Source of the DNA: Myxococcales bacterium
GTDB lineage: Bacteria > Myxococcota_A > Polyangia > Polyangiales > JAFGIB01
Reading direction: 5' to 3'
Length of the DNA: 58,951 nt
Assembly: GCA_028817905.1 (NCBI GenBank)
Contig: JAPPOR010000007.1
Location: forward strand, 3,502-62,452
Part shown: one piece after another, positions 14,289 to 58,877 of the stretch
Position numbering within the stretch: the stretch's first letter is position 1
Layout of the letters: each line of letters opens with the position of its first letter
Translations under genes and position numbers: made by a program
The notes under the pieces: model-generated
Database searches by the model: none
The model's input: only the letters and a program-made list of their open reading frames with translations
Told to the model about the DNA's origin: nothing

Positions 14289-16217
14289 CTAGAACGAATA
14301 CCCGTTGTAAATCACGAAGTCGCTCGGATGGGGAGCCGGGACCGCGATCAGCCCCGCCCGATCGAGCGCGATCGCTCGCCGCTGAACTTGACAATCGGGC
14401 TTGCAGCGTAGAGCAGGATGGTAGTGGTAGGCGAGCCATACGGGTTCAGACGGGTCGCTTCCGCGCACCTCCAGACGATTCATGGAGGCGGCAACGTGGC
14501 CACCGCCCCGCTGTACGCGCGCATGCGGGCGTAGGTTTCGATAGATCGTCCGCCCCGCGATCACATGCGAGCGCTCAAGCGTCTCCGGCATGCGAGCGAA
14601 TTCCGGGTGCTCGTGATGAGCGACGATCCTGTCGATCGCGTATGTGTCCAGGTATTCGGCCATGCGAGCTTCGGGAATGACCCTCCCTTGGTAGGGCCTG
14701 AAAACGTTCGCGAACGCATGCACCAGATTACGCTCGCGAAAGCCCCCGACGATCTCGACTCCGGATCGCCGCGCTAGCGCTTGCCACGCCAGACGCTCCC
14801 CCAGAGCGATATCCTCCACCAGCAGGCGCTCTCCAGACGCCACATGGCGGCCCACCCACATGGCCACACGGTCCCCGTAGCCGTCGACCATGGGAGAATG
14901 CGGCAGCGTAAAATCCAATGCGTCAACGTGCCCGTGTGCATAGAGCGGAGAAGGGTCACCCTCCATCAGCGGTTTCACATCCGGTAGCTTTCCAACGAAG
15001 AAGTAGCGCGCGTCGTTCCACAGATGCAGGCAGGTGCCCACCACCACAATCCAGCCCAACGCTCGCAATTCCACCCGTAAGCCGGCAAAGGGCCTCTGTC
15101 GGACAGCCCACACGACCGTCCAGGCAGCTGGCAAGGTCGCGGCAAACGCCGCTGGCAAGACATGGCGATAGGGCTGCATCTGATTCGCCAGAGGGACGTA
15201 GCGCCCCAGGTACGCGAAGAACAGCCCGGTGCCGACAGTCACCGCGATGGGCAAGAACCGCGCATCGTGGCTGCGGCGCCAATGCGCGAGACCAACGGCC
15301 GCGAGCGCCAAACACAGGAAGCGAAAGCCGGTTCGCGTTCCGACGACGCCGGTGTCGGTTGGGTCGTGCAGAATGTTGAGGAAGTCGGCGATCAGGGTCG
15401 CCAGCCCACCCTGCACGAAGAACGCGGAGTCCAGTATGTAGTCCCAATGGGCCAAGGCCACAAGGATCCAGGGCGCATTGATAGCCAATGTGATCGCGGC
15501 GACCACGGCAACAAACACGTGCTGCGCCACCGAGTAGGCGCGCGCATGCACTGCGTAGAGCGTCCCCATCGCGGGTGCCAATACAAAGAATACGAAGGGG
15601 TGCACCAGGTGACACAAGCCCAGGGCGATGCCCGTCGCGATCGCCCATGGGGCGGTGGGACGGCTCGCCATGCGCACAAACATCGAAAGCGGCAGAAGCA
15701 AGAGCACAGCCCCGTACGCGAAGGCATTCATACCGACCCACCAAAGCCAGCGCGCAAAGGAGTCGAAGTTCCACAGCATGCTCGCAAGGCCTCCTGCCAA
15801 GGCAGCGGTCCCGAGGGGCATTCCCAGCAGCATTCCAGCGGCGATCACGATGAGAGGCACCGATAGGGCGCTCACAAACGGAAACACATTGAACGCCTGT
15901 CCGCGCGTTAGGCCCGCCTTGTTCAGCCAGTAGGCCAACAGACTCCAGGCCTTGTTGTCCCCATCGAAGATCGTGTTCGCGGGATGGCCGGCCAGCAAGC
16001 TGACGTCGTAGCACCAGGTCTGGCCCCAACCTTCGAGGGACTGGATCAGCCGGTACGTCTGCCCGATGTGGGTATCATAGTCACCGCCCGTGACCGGCCG
16101 CCCCCGGGTAGCCACCTCCCACGGGAAAGCTCCGAGAACCAGTGCAGTGTGCAAGCCAAGCACGCTGGCCACTGCCAGGGCGGCGACCAGGCGGTCCCCT
16201 CGGGCCAGCGACGACAT
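14289..16217 (-). CDS. Polytopic membrane protein, possible GT-C-type glycosyltransferase
   Basis: 642 residues. About 11-12 predicted membrane segments fill residues 8-395, then a soluble C-terminal part of about 240 residues. Early in the chain the loop GGDYDTHIGQTYRLIQSLEGWGQTWCYD has acidic residues placed as in the first periplasmic loop of GT-C glycosyltransferases and related 6-TM-plus sugar transfer proteins, but no family could be assigned. The C-terminal part holds HHEHPEF and a Tyr-rich end. With two lipoproteins downstream it may serve envelope assembly. The start ATG 16217 directly abuts a dispersed repeat (16230). Confidence 0.65.
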   Translation of the reverse strand: MSSLARGDRLVAALAVASVLGLHTALVLGAFPWEVATRGRPVTGGDYDTHIGQTYRLIQSLEGWGQTWCYDVSLLAGHPANTIFDGDNKAWSLLAYWLNKAGLTRGQAFNVFPFVSALSVPLIVIAAGMLLGMPLGTAALAGGLASMLWNFDSFARWLWWVGMNAFAYGAVLLLLPLSMFVRMASRPTAPWAIATGIALGLCHLVHPFVFFVLAPAMGTLYAVHARAYSVAQHVFVAVVAAITLAINAPWILVALAHWDYILDSAFFVQGGLATLIADFLNILHDPTDTGVVGTRTGFRFLCLALAAVGLAHWRRSHDARFLPIAVTVGTGLFFAYLGRYVPLANQMQPYRHVLPAAFAATLPAAWTVVWAVRQRPFAGLRVELRALGWIVVVGTCLHLWNDARYFFVGKLPDVKPLMEGDPSPLYAHGHVDALDFTLPHSPMVDGYGDRVAMWVGRHVASGERLLVEDIALGERLAWQALARRSGVEIVGGFRERNLVHAFANVFRPYQGRVIPEARMAEYLDTYAIDRIVAHHEHPEFARMPETLERSHVIAGRTIYRNLRPHARVQRGGGHVAASMNRLEVRGSDPSEPVWLAYHYHPALRCKPDCQVQRRAIALDRAGLIAVPAPHPSDFVIYNGYSF

Positions 16218-16229
16218 TCGGGCAGGTTA

Positions 16230-16386
16230 GCCCGGATCATTGTCGACTTCGACGCCGCGCTCGTCCCTCGACTCCACAGGACTGTCCGCAGCCCTAGAAA
16301 TACGGGGGCATTCCCACCGGTCGTCGAAAGCCCTGTCAAGCCAAACCCCTGGGCGGTCCGCCGAAGGCACGAACCGGGTGGGTACA
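16230..16386. repeat. Dispersed MITE-like repeat A, copy 1 (diverged)
   Basis: Aligns over about 130 nt with 20877-21000. Shared landmarks are GCCCGGATCA at the left end, ACTCCACAGG/ACTCACAGG, GCCCTAGAAA, ATTCCC, and the identical 19-mer CGGTCGTCGAAAGCCCTGT (16318-16336). The right end is degenerate (about 15 of 24 matching). It lies between the divergent membrane protein and MoxR genes, occupying most of their 209-nt gap, so their promoters are in or next to it. Confidence 0.7.
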
Positions 16387-16426: not shown

Positions 16427-17440
16427 GTGGAACCGGATCTCGCTCTGGACGCCCCGCGGGCCGACGACCTCGAGACTGCCCGTGCTGTCATGCAAACGAT
16501 CGGCAACCGCGCTCGGGCCGCCGTGGTGGGCCGTGACGATGTCGTCGAGCTAGTACTGATCGCGTTGCTCTCGGACGGTCATGTCCTGCTCGAAGACTAT
16601 CCTGGCTCCGGCAAAACGACGCTGGCCCGCTGCTTGGGGGCGTCTCTCGCAGCCGACGACACCAGCCCCTTGCCACCCTTTCGGCGCATTCAATTCACAC
16701 CCGATTTGCTCCCCAGCGATGTCACTGGGACCAGCGTCTTCGAGTTGGAGACGAATCGCCTCGAGTTTCGGCCGGGTCCCATCTTCGCGCACATTGTGCT
16801 CGCGGACGAGATCAACAGGACGTCTCCCAAGGTGCAGGCCGCCATGCTGGAGGCGATGGCTGAAAAGCAAGTAACGGTCGACAACACAACCCACCGGCTC
16901 GATGAGCTGTTCTTCGTGATAGCCACGCAGAACCCCATCGACGTGGTGGGTACGTACCCGTTGCCAACGCCGCAACTCGATCGGTTCCTCTTCAAGATTC
17001 GCATGCACCACATTGCCCGCGAGGCGGAACTGGAGGTGCTCTCCCAGTACCCTCAGGCCAGTCTTTCGCTTGCCGAAGGAATGGACCGCGTGTCGCGCGA
17101 TCAGCTCCTGCGCGCACGCCGTGCAACCAGAACTGGGGTTGGAATCACACCCACCATCAAGGAAGCCCTGGTGGATCTTGCCCGGCGCCTACGCGCAGAT
17201 GACCGGGTCCTGCAGGGCGCATCCACCCGAAGCCTCGTACTGATGATGCCCGCACTGCAGGCGCGGGCTCTCTTGCGCGGGCGCGACTTTGTGGCACCCG
17301 AGGACATCGAGGCACTGGCCGTTCCGGTATTCGGTCACCGCATTGAATGCGCTCCCGGTATCCAGGCCAGCGAGGAGATTATCGAGAGTCACCTGTCCGC
17401 GGTGGTCGAGGGGCTCGCCCGTTCGAGCCTCGGTTCATGA
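16427..17440 (+). CDS. MoxR-type AAA ATPase
   Basis: 337 residues starting at GTG 16427. Walker A YPGSGKTTLARCLG near 53-66, Walker B HIVLADEINRTSPK near 121-135, sensor ATQNPID near 166-172, and the C-terminal lid: the full MoxR family architecture. MoxR proteins act as chaperone-like ATPases, usually beside DUF58 and von Willebrand-domain genes. Neither is found here; the next gene encodes a TPR-like exported protein that starts 46 nt downstream. Family assignment is firm, substrate unknown. Confidence 0.92.
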   Translation: MEPDLALDAPRADDLETARAVMQTIGNRARAAVVGRDDVVELVLIALLSDGHVLLEDYPGSGKTTLARCLGASLAADDTSPLPPFRRIQFTPDLLPSDVTGTSVFELETNRLEFRPGPIFAHIVLADEINRTSPKVQAAMLEAMAEKQVTVDNTTHRLDELFFVIATQNPIDVVGTYPLPTPQLDRFLFKIRMHHIAREAELEVLSQYPQASLSLAEGMDRVSRDQLLRARRATRTGVGITPTIKEALVDLARRLRADDRVLQGASTRSLVLMMPALQARALLRGRDFVAPEDIEALAVPVFGHRIECAPGIQASEEIIESHLSAVVEGLARSSLGS

Positions 17441-20746: not shown

Positions 20747-21071
20747 GCAACGGTGCTACGTCAATGTCCTCGTTCGGGTCAATTTTCTGGTCCGCCCACG
20801 AACGGGCTTCGGGATCGTGCATGACATCGTAGCCAGCTCGCTCGTCTTGGACTCCACAGAACTTTCGGCCGCCGTAGCCCGGATCACGCATGACTTCGCT
20901 GCCGCTTCGCTTGTCCTTCAACTCACAGGTCCTTGGCCGCCCTAGAAAGTACGCGGAGTATTCCCGTCGGTCGTCGAAAGCCCTGTGAAGCCGAATCCCT
21001 GCGCGCCACGACGCAGAAGTCATGAATGATATGGGCTGGCCCGGTCCGCCGGCATTCGGTATTCATGCAAT
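20747..21071. other. 325-nt gene-free region between divergent genes, mostly repeat A
   Basis: No supportable gene. It holds a duplicated left half of repeat A (20810-20876), the complete element (20877-21036), and a short CATGAAT/ATTCATG inverted repeat spanning 21021-21067 next to the start of the gene at 21072. Short open frames here on the minus strand lie wholly inside the repeats and are not convincing proteins. Confidence 0.6.
20877..21036. mobile_element. MITE-like repeat A, best-preserved copy (copy 2)
   Basis: 160 bp. Left end begins GCCCGGATCACGCATGACTT (20877-20896). The right end is its inverted counterpart, reading GCCCATATCATTCATGACTT on the minus strand from 21036; about 17 of 21 positions match. 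It contains GCCCTAGAAAG, TATTCCC and the 19-mer CGGTCGTCGAAAGCCCTGT (20968-20986) shared with copy 1. No transposase is encoded, so if mobile it would depend on an enzyme elsewhere. Confidence 0.65.
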
Positions 21072-57016: not shown

Positions 57017-57925
57017 TTGACCCCGATGCGATGGTCCTATCGAGTCGGTGAGTGGTTTGGCATTGGAGTACACGTCCATTTGACCTTTGCGCTTCTGCTG
57101 GGCTGGGTCGCCGTCGGTACGCTGGCAGATACGGGTTCGCTCCCAGCTACGCTGATCAGCGTGCTCCTTGTCATGGCGTTGTTTGGCTTCGTGCTGTTGC
57201 ACGAGTTTGGGCACGCCCTTACCGCGCGCCGCTTCGGCATCCGGACGCGCAACATCACCCTGTATCCGATCGGCGGCGTCGCAGCGTTGGAGGGCATGCC
57301 CGAGAGCCCGCGTGCCCAGGCGCTGGTCGCAATCGCCGGCCCGATGGTGAACTTCGCGCTCGCCCTCGGCTTGGCTGGCCTGGCATGGCTGTTGGGCCAA
57401 AACCCCTTTGCCTCACCCACGACAGCCGCGCCGCTCGAGACCCTACTGGGACTGATGGTACAGGCCAACCTGGTGCTGGGGCTCTTCAATCTGCTGCCAG
57501 CGCTTCCGATGGACGGGGGACGCGTGCTCAAGGCCCTCCTTTCCACACGCATGGACGCCCGGCGCGCCACGGCGATTGCGGCCCGTGTCGCCCGAGTAGT
57601 GGCGCTGGCAATGGGGGTCTACGGCCTACTCGGCACGCCGACCCGTCCGATGCTGATCGTGATAGCGGCCTTCGTTTGGTTTGCCTCCGCCGCCGAAGCG
57701 CGATTTGCACGCGCCCAAGCGCAGCGTACGCGCACGAGCCCCATCAATGCCTGGCCGACCGACCGCTACCGGACCCCGCGCCCGCGAGAGACTCACTTCC
57801 ATGGCGGGCCACCCGACCGTGGCCCCCGGCCTTCCGGTAGCGGACCATCCGAACAGATGCGCTTCGTAGTCGTCCACGGCCCGTTCGGGCCAGTCCTGCG
57901 CGTCGTGCCCGTCGACCCCCGCTAG
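57017..57925 (+). CDS. Site-2 protease-type M50 metallopeptidase
   Basis: 302 residues from TTG 57017, chosen because GGGAGGA lies 7 nt upstream (ATG 57026 would be 16 nt away). Membrane segments about 20-40, 45-65, 100-125, 140-165, 200-235. Zinc motif HEFGH near 69-73 in the second or third helix and the third ligand in NLLPALPMDGGRVL near 170. It cuts membrane-bound substrates, often anti-sigma factors. The C-terminal 70 residues are a polar extension with no CBS domain seen. Precedes repeat A copy 3. Confidence 0.92.
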   Translation: MTPMRWSYRVGEWFGIGVHVHLTFALLLGWVAVGTLADTGSLPATLISVLLVMALFGFVLLHEFGHALTARRFGIRTRNITLYPIGGVAALEGMPESPRAQALVAIAGPMVNFALALGLAGLAWLLGQNPFASPTTAAPLETLLGLMVQANLVLGLFNLLPALPMDGGRVLKALLSTRMDARRATAIAARVARVVALAMGVYGLLGTPTRPMLIVIAAFVWFASAAEARFARAQAQRTRTSPINAWPTDRYRTPRPRETHFHGGPPDRGPRPSGSGPSEQMRFVVVHGPFGPVLRVVPVDPR

Positions 57926-57927
57926 CG

Positions 57928-57992
57928 CGCATCCATCACCAAATCGCGCGCCCTCGCACAAGTGATCATCACGTGCCTTGATGATGGATGCG
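57928..57992. repeat. Perfect 11-bp inverted repeat with inner palindrome
   Basis: Arms CGCATCCATCA (57928-57938) and TGATGGATGCG (57982-57992), 43-nt loop holding the palindrome GTGATCATCAC (57962-57972). It starts 2 nt past the protease stop and runs into repeat A copy 3. Could be a second small element or an operator for the Crp/Fnr gene. Confidence 0.55.
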
Positions 57993-57997
57993 GGCTG

Positions 57998-58098
57998 GCC
58001 CGGATCATTCACGACCTCGGCGACCGAATACTCGCCGTATTCGGCGAGCGAGGACAAAGCCCTGTCAAAGTCGAAGACCAAGCGTGGGTTGGCGGAAT
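57998..58098. repeat. Dispersed repeat A, copy 3 (shortened)
   Basis: Starts GCCCGGATCATTCACGACCT, like the other copies, and regains similarity at GTATTCGGCG and AAAGCCCTGTCAAAG (58056-58070). It lacks about 60 bp of the middle. The left flank GGGCTGGCCCGG equals the right flank of copy 2 (21033-21044). It lies in the 226-nt gap before the Crp/Fnr gene. Confidence 0.6.
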
Positions 58099-58151: not shown

Positions 58152-58877
58152 ATGGCCCAACCGAGCAAACCCGCGGAAGCCATGCGGAGACTTCGGGGGA
58201 TTCTCGAGGAAATTCCGCTATTTGCAGGTCTAGAAGACGAAGAAGCGCTGCGCATCGGAGCAGCCGCCCGGCAGCGGACGTTCCAACGCGACGAAGTCGT
58301 CGTCGATTGCGGTGAGGCGCCCCAGGCGGTCTACGCGATCGCCTCTGGCCGCTTGAAAGTGGTCCGGCCCCGCATCCAAGGCCCAGACGCGGGCCTCGCG
58401 ATTCTGAGGGCGGGAGAGTTATTCGGTGAGGTCGCCATCCTGAGCCGCACCCAGGAAGGCCGTCTCGCACGCGTGATTGCACTGCGCGAATCCGTCCTGT
58501 TGGCGATCGACGCCGCGACCTTCGTCGGCTTGCTGCAAAGCTCACAGACCCTATCCCTAAGGCTCCTGGCCATGCTGGCAGGTCGCCTGCGGGACACGAC
58601 GGTACATTTTGACGACGTAACCTCGCTCGATGTGCCCGGTCGCCTGGCCCGCAAGCTACTCTTGCTGGCCGACAGGTTCGGCTCCCCAGTACAGGACGGC
58701 GTGGGGCTACAAGTTCGCCTCACACAGCGCGAACTGGGTGAACTGGTCGACGCGACCTGGCGCGACGTCAGCGCCTGCCTGACCCAGTGGCGGCTCGAGG
58801 GGGCCCTGCGCCTGCGAGACGGGCAACTCGTTATCGTCGACCTGGATGCGCTCAGGTGCTACGCCGACACAGCCTGA
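58152..58877 (+). CDS. Crp/Fnr-family transcription regulator
   Basis: 241 residues; ATG 58152 with GGAGG 5 nt upstream. cNMP-type barrel 15-135 (LFAGLEDEEALRIGAAARQRTFQRDEVV, GELFGEVAILSRTQEGRLARVIAL), dimer helix 140-165, then a winged helix with LTQRELGELVDATWRDVSACLTQWRLEGAL as recognition region. Only one Cys early on (Cys53), so no Fnr-type iron-sulfur cluster. Effector unknown; regulation of the oxidase operon at 1-6600 is conceivable but not shown. Confidence 0.92.
   Translation: MAQPSKPAEAMRRLRGILEEIPLFAGLEDEEALRIGAAARQRTFQRDEVVVDCGEAPQAVYAIASGRLKVVRPRIQGPDAGLAILRAGELFGEVAILSRTQEGRLARVIALRESVLLAIDAATFVGLLQSSQTLSLRLLAMLAGRLRDTTVHFDDVTSLDVPGRLARKLLLLADRFGSPVQDGVGLQVRLTQRELGELVDATWRDVSACLTQWRLEGALRLRDGQLVIVDLDALRCYADTA

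Follow-up and report, generated by a model that had tools for sequence, protein, structure and literature searches.

Bacterial MITEs are a known kind of repeat, and several described families are close in form to the element discussed here. ERIC, Correia (NEMIS), RUP and YPAL are high-copy intergenic sequences of roughly 100-170 bp with inverted ends and a long stem-loop (PMC2229807), and the REPs of REP-RAYT systems carry a GTAG tetranucleotide (PMC8266576). The IS1380 family is the prokaryotic counterpart of piggyBac (PMC5718144), the transposase of which works through 4-nt hairpin intermediates and inserts at TTAA, the gap being repaired seamlessly (PMC7351741). A replicative route has been proposed for ISPme1, which belongs to the IS1380 family (PMC9330008). 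Neither IS1380 nor CTAG is mentioned in a 2024 review of MITEs in prokaryotes (PMC10969869), and among the open-access papers searched we found none that links bacterial MITEs to IS1380. The end sequences described below were likewise searched for and not found in open-access papers.

Here we consider a feature in a stretch of 58,951 nucleotides from a Myxococcales bacterium, hereafter the window. Comparisons of sequences indicate that this is very probably a non-autonomous hairpin MITE with the ~20-bp inverted ends of an insertion sequence (IS) of the IS1380 family, present in the window as a nested pair.

Copies in the window and in the source genome

The 160-bp unit originally predicted at 20877-21036 is real; its inverted ends are identical at 17 of 21 positions (80.95% over 21 nt) and, as had been claimed, no transposase lies within it. 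The complete copy of which it forms the body is flanked by GTAG (20874-20877) and CTGG (21036-21039), each one change off CTAG, and has three mismatches at both ends, for which the chance expectation is 0.00. The number of end-like sites in the window is three, again with 0.00 expected. The adjoining sequence had been described as a duplicated left half. A partial copy is indeed present (Table 1), but its alignment stops exactly at the CTAG inside the consensus (consensus 69-72), where the complete copy starts. Because of this exact stop we prefer nested insertion over duplication, and the most plausible arrangement is that a newer copy has split an older one at its internal CTAG. Since the right half of the older copy is no longer recognisable, comparison with the consensus giving no detectable remnant next to the complete copy, the nesting is something that we infer rather than observe.

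Related copies had also been placed at 16230-16386 and 57998-58098, and both score above shuffled sequences. The former sits between genes at 14289-16217 (minus strand) and 16427-17440 (plus strand, MoxR-type AAA ATPase). The latter, upstream of a Crp-type regulator gene at 58152, is weak, with a good match at the left end only (two mismatches), and the original prediction had left it unseparated from a neighbouring copy of a second hairpin family. The CTGG at 57995-57998 is common to both neighbours, and their boundary appears to be an insertion of the same kind, at the target repeat of the neighbour.

Table 1. Hairpin elements located in the window, with alignment scores or the comparison on which each assignment is based.
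Feature	Position	Strand	Basis
Family 1, complete but aged copy	20874..21039	+	Full-length consensus alignment, score 240 vs shuffle maximum 49
Family 1, older copy, left half	20812..20877	+	Score 76 vs shuffle maximum 38, consensus 8-72
Family 1, second copy, right end decayed	16227..16378	+	Score 193 vs shuffle maximum 50
Family 1-like, third copy, right end lost	57995..58098	+	Consensus score 70 vs shuffle maximum 44
Second hairpin family (ends CTAGCCCGCATCCATCACCA), shortened copy	57922..57998	+	Compared with full-length family-2 elements and 276 exact genome ends

Copy numbers in the source genome (11.1 Mb in 1110 contigs) were obtained from pattern and BLAST searches. The exact end pattern of family 1 was found 294 times (148 + 146) and its backwards control not once, and BLAST recovered no fewer than 40 copies of nearly full length, most of which share 83-88% identity with the copy in the window. 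Judged from these counts, family 1 is present in well over a hundred copies. A consensus from about 30 near-full-length copies, CTAGCCCGGATCATTCATGACTTCGACG ... GATCCGGGCTAG, is 167 bp long including both CTAGs, has perfect inverted ends and folds into a single end-to-end hairpin of -87.7 kcal/mol. The best copies are 97-99% identical to it, which suggests that the family was active recently and has been amplified, and that the window copy is old. The copies are thus far more numerous than the three first noted and their ends are conserved. Nor do they correspond to a known structured RNA: Rfam gave no match above the gathering score in the window, and only a tRNA in 10 loci with intact copies. 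Family 1 has the properties of a MITE, being short and gene-less, with terminal inverted repeats, many copies, a target site duplication and ends common to an autonomous transposon.

The same core occurs in the second family of the source genome, for which we counted 276 exact ends and none for the control. Its members are 166 bp long and flanked by CTAG, as seen at locus L010 (1661-1826), at L317, L320 and L330, and in the relative G004 (L084). In many contigs of the assembly (for example C10:48, C20:36, C51:36 and C93:34), an end of family 1 or family 2 lies no more than about 150 bp from the contig end, and the two repeats are thus a probable cause of the assembly's fragmentation.

Transposase ends and the target site

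A partner for family 1 was sought among the DDE transposases of genomes that hold family-1 ends. In other genomes, from Planctomycetota, Acidobacteria, Alphaproteobacteria and Myxococcota, transposases of the IS1380 family are bounded by family-1 ends (CTAGCCCGGATNATTCA...) and by 4-bp repeats of CTAG or TTAG. In a planctomycete MAG, CTAGCCCGGATCCCTCAC lies at both sides of an element (L242/L264) whose transposase belongs to the IS1380 family (PF13701, E 5e-148; NF033539, E 2e-114). The same end pattern borders two IS1380 loci of 1651 bp each in an acidobacterial MAG (L265 and L272) and further loci in Myxococcota (L287-L291, L294 and L295); elements sharing the ends of the MITE include L264, L265, L272, L288 and L295. 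In addition, the ends next to two IS1380 remnants (L270 and L274) are the same as the MITE end or nearly so. The closest element is L295, the ends of which match those of the MITE at 90-100% over 17-21 nt. This element (1252-2933) carries a transposase gene with its stop 228 bp from the element end and interrupts another gene; deleting its sequence while keeping one CTAG gives an open frame of 696 codons. The sequence in common between the MITE and any IS found amounts to only about 20 bp.

Within the source genome, an IS1380 remnant (L337, G000:C482, 1454-1952) consists of a frameshifted C-terminal fragment that matches at 41% over 71 residues and 65% over 17, and the match ends 239 bp from a matching family-1 end. 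The end in question doubles as one arm of a 50-bp palindrome with family-1 ends, and could be part of a separate mini-element. Neither the window's genome nor the relatives G001, G002, G004, G029 and G054 yielded an intact IS1380 transposase; because the source assembly is fragmented, a repeated IS could be missing from it. Hits in G054, which belongs to the order of the source, coincided in contig position with those in the Polyangiaceae MAG WQYX (G101), so the source is probably a member of Polyangiales within Myxococcota. Other candidates were set aside. Matching ends were seen in just one of the hits to PF01609, the IS1380 member L242, and the open reading frames examined as a recurrent neighbour of the ends across genomes were shadow frames of the repeats or unrelated genes. 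A distinct IS1380 subgroup in Myxococcota (L305, L314 and L316) has CTAGCCCTGATCCG at both sides and is also flanked by CTAG.

Copies found by BLAST, in which the flanks are free of search bias, are bordered by CTA...TAG almost without exception, and CTAG forms both flanking 4-mers in 28 of 37 copies in the own genome. Such a palindromic flank is ambiguous, in that either TA or CTAG may have been duplicated, and it would fit a MITE mobilised by an IS630 (Tc1/mariner) transposase with duplication of TA, as in RUP, since a preference of IS630 for TA within CTAG was reported by Tenzen and Ohtsubo (1991; title cited in PMC2170065). However, a MITE in the relative G001 (L102) has CTAA at both sides, and among the 14 IS1380 elements that have both ends, 11 are flanked by CTAG and one by TTAG at both sides, counts that, like the G001 case, are partly biased by the TAG/CTAG required in the search pattern. 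The non-palindromic pairs CTAA/CTAA and TTAG/TTAG therefore identify a 4-bp direct repeat, against a duplication of TA. Furthermore, no DDE_3 transposase (IS630) was found in the source genome, and it is on IS1380 elements that the matching ends occur. We consider mobilisation by IS630 very unlikely.

A RAYT (Y1) transposase had been suggested; in that case the whole hairpin would serve as single-stranded substrate in the manner of a REPIN. Long palindromes with a CTAG tetranucleotide do recall REPs with GTAG, and Y1-type genes are present in relatives. Nevertheless, none of the Y1 loci scanned is flanked by hairpins on both sides, one of the Y1 genes has a lone element 1.3 kb away, and the source genome has a sub-threshold Y1 match only. 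REPINs do not leave 4-bp target repeats, and the partner that emerged is of the IS1380 type, which makes a link to RAYT extremely improbable. The missing transposase is thus probably neither IS630 nor RAYT but of the IS1380 type, to judge from the matching ends.

In a rough GC-frame gene call, 36 of 37 family-1 copies lie between genes, in line with the intergenic, high-copy, non-autonomous family with inverted ends that had been proposed. The further claim that it populates promoter regions does not agree with the neighbouring gene pairs scored, about 12 of which are co-directional, 4 convergent and 5-6 divergent, nor with the finding that in 8 of 22 copies the flanking CTAG contains the gene's own TAG stop codon. 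One such neighbour encodes a CTP synthase, and its match to the family profile extends almost to the last profile position. The window has fewer CTAG sites than expected (73 vs 195), and 10 of the 73 are on called stop codons. Special targeting of stop codons is therefore unneeded, because the availability of CTAG sites together with selection against gene damage suffices to explain these placements.

We hypothesize that an IS1380 transposase acting in trans would bind the family-1 ends (CCCGGATNATTCATGA), excise the hairpin element and join it into a palindromic CTAG, so that a 4-bp repeat arises at both sides, in a manner similar to that of piggyBac at TTAA. CTAG being rare and often placed over a TAG stop or between genes, the repeat would regenerate the stop codon, and such insertions would therefore spare the reading frame. 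In the window, a newer copy would have inserted into the internal CTAG of an older one. From the shared ends we infer that an IS1380 transposase moved the copies of family 1, and by analogy the chemistry would be cut-and-paste; the palindromic 4-bp target and the restored frame fit a piggyBac-like scheme.

Distribution and evolution of the hairpin core

The short end sequence CTAGCCCGGATNATTCATGA was found in at least 107 stretches of named genomes, and the matches listed come from Myxococcota, Planctomycetota, Nitrospira, Acidobacteria, Gamma-, Alpha- and Zetaproteobacteria, Eisenbacteria and others. A longer end pattern gave no match in a first scan of named genomes. No copies of the end sequence were found on plasmids, with a query that was short and held Ns, or in viral contigs. 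Many of the sites are the ends of hairpins of about 50-260 bp, often with unrelated interiors. Interiors homologous to the family in the window were identified in Sedimenticola, in Dokdonella, in a Granulosicoccaceae MAG and in the same-order genomes G004 and G033 (z 8-16), and the core is thus common to Myxococcota and Gammaproteobacteria. In the planctomycete JAJDEV (Planctomycetota OFTM281; for example L118, L129 and L190), a 183-bp hairpin family has the same ends and an unrelated interior, with almost all of its G-T pairs on one strand (9:0).

One hypothesis is that the hairpin core is functional itself, as an RNA or, in single-stranded DNA, as a structure that promotes copying, and that the transposon ends are only its vehicle. 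The occurrence of the core in two families of one genome that differ in their ends, and in both Myxococcota and Gammaproteobacteria, would favor this. So would its pattern of change: in an alignment of 12 core sequences with 480 pair cells, 92.7% of the cells are paired vs 78.9% after shuffling, and the covariation score is 0.431 vs 0.156 (sd 0.015), a value reached in 0 of 500 shuffles, with slid controls at 0.05-0.10. In some families, moreover, one strand carries nearly all G-U pairs (10:0 and 9:0). However, this strand bias is significant in some families only and is not general, so we did not accept it as proof of a role as RNA. The same ends also occur on hairpins with unrelated interiors, no orientation bias relative to genes was seen, and the core lacks a match in Rfam.

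Two-sided changes account for 68 cells (vs 20.5 shuffled) and one-sided G-U states for 13, and since steps through G-U are rare, the pattern is more in keeping with a DNA palindrome whose two arms match than with an RNA. Arm-to-arm correction without selection could produce the same pattern. We therefore regard a function of the core itself as possible but doubtful. A broader version would make the core an element in its own right, spreading between phyla with its foldback under selection and swapping its ends (CCCGGATNATTCATGA or CCCGCATCCATCACCA) so as to use different IS1380 transposases, perhaps because the hairpin, once extruded, helps copying or acts as a host RNA; this we think unlikely. 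The reading that we prefer is still that of a MITE with IS1380-type ends.

Comparison with known systems

With the link proposed here, a large palindromic family acquires a candidate transposase family that can be named and that agrees with it in ends and target, so that the link is directly testable. It would also provide a bacterial counterpart to the palindromic 4-bp targeting of piggyBac, in which insertion at CTAG can reuse the stop codon of a gene. Yet another aspect of interest is the repeat core with conserved structure, common to more than one phylum.

Among described elements, family 1 is most directly related to the IS1380 family (NF033539/PF13701; ISEcp1, ISPme1), which has the terminal sequence CTAGCCCGGAT... 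and a 4-bp palindromic flank as in the MITE. Unlike these insertion sequences, the 167-bp element has no transposase gene and shares with them about 20 bp of end sequence, and on this evidence it can be classed as dependent on IS1380 but not as belonging to that family. In size, copy number, position and foldback it resembles ERIC, Correia, RUP and YPAL; RUP has a terminal TA motif and is linked to IS630, whereas family 1 has the 4-bp CTAG flank and IS1380 ends. Its palindromic form, intergenic position, hundreds of copies and end tetranucleotide recall the REPINs and REP-RAYT systems, from which it differs in having target repeats and no linked RAYT. Finally, it resembles piggyBac, in which a palindromic 4-bp target (TTAA) is duplicated at both sides and the inverted repeat begins with CCC (PMC10813416, PMC7351741). 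It differs from piggyBac in having CTAG in place of TTAA.
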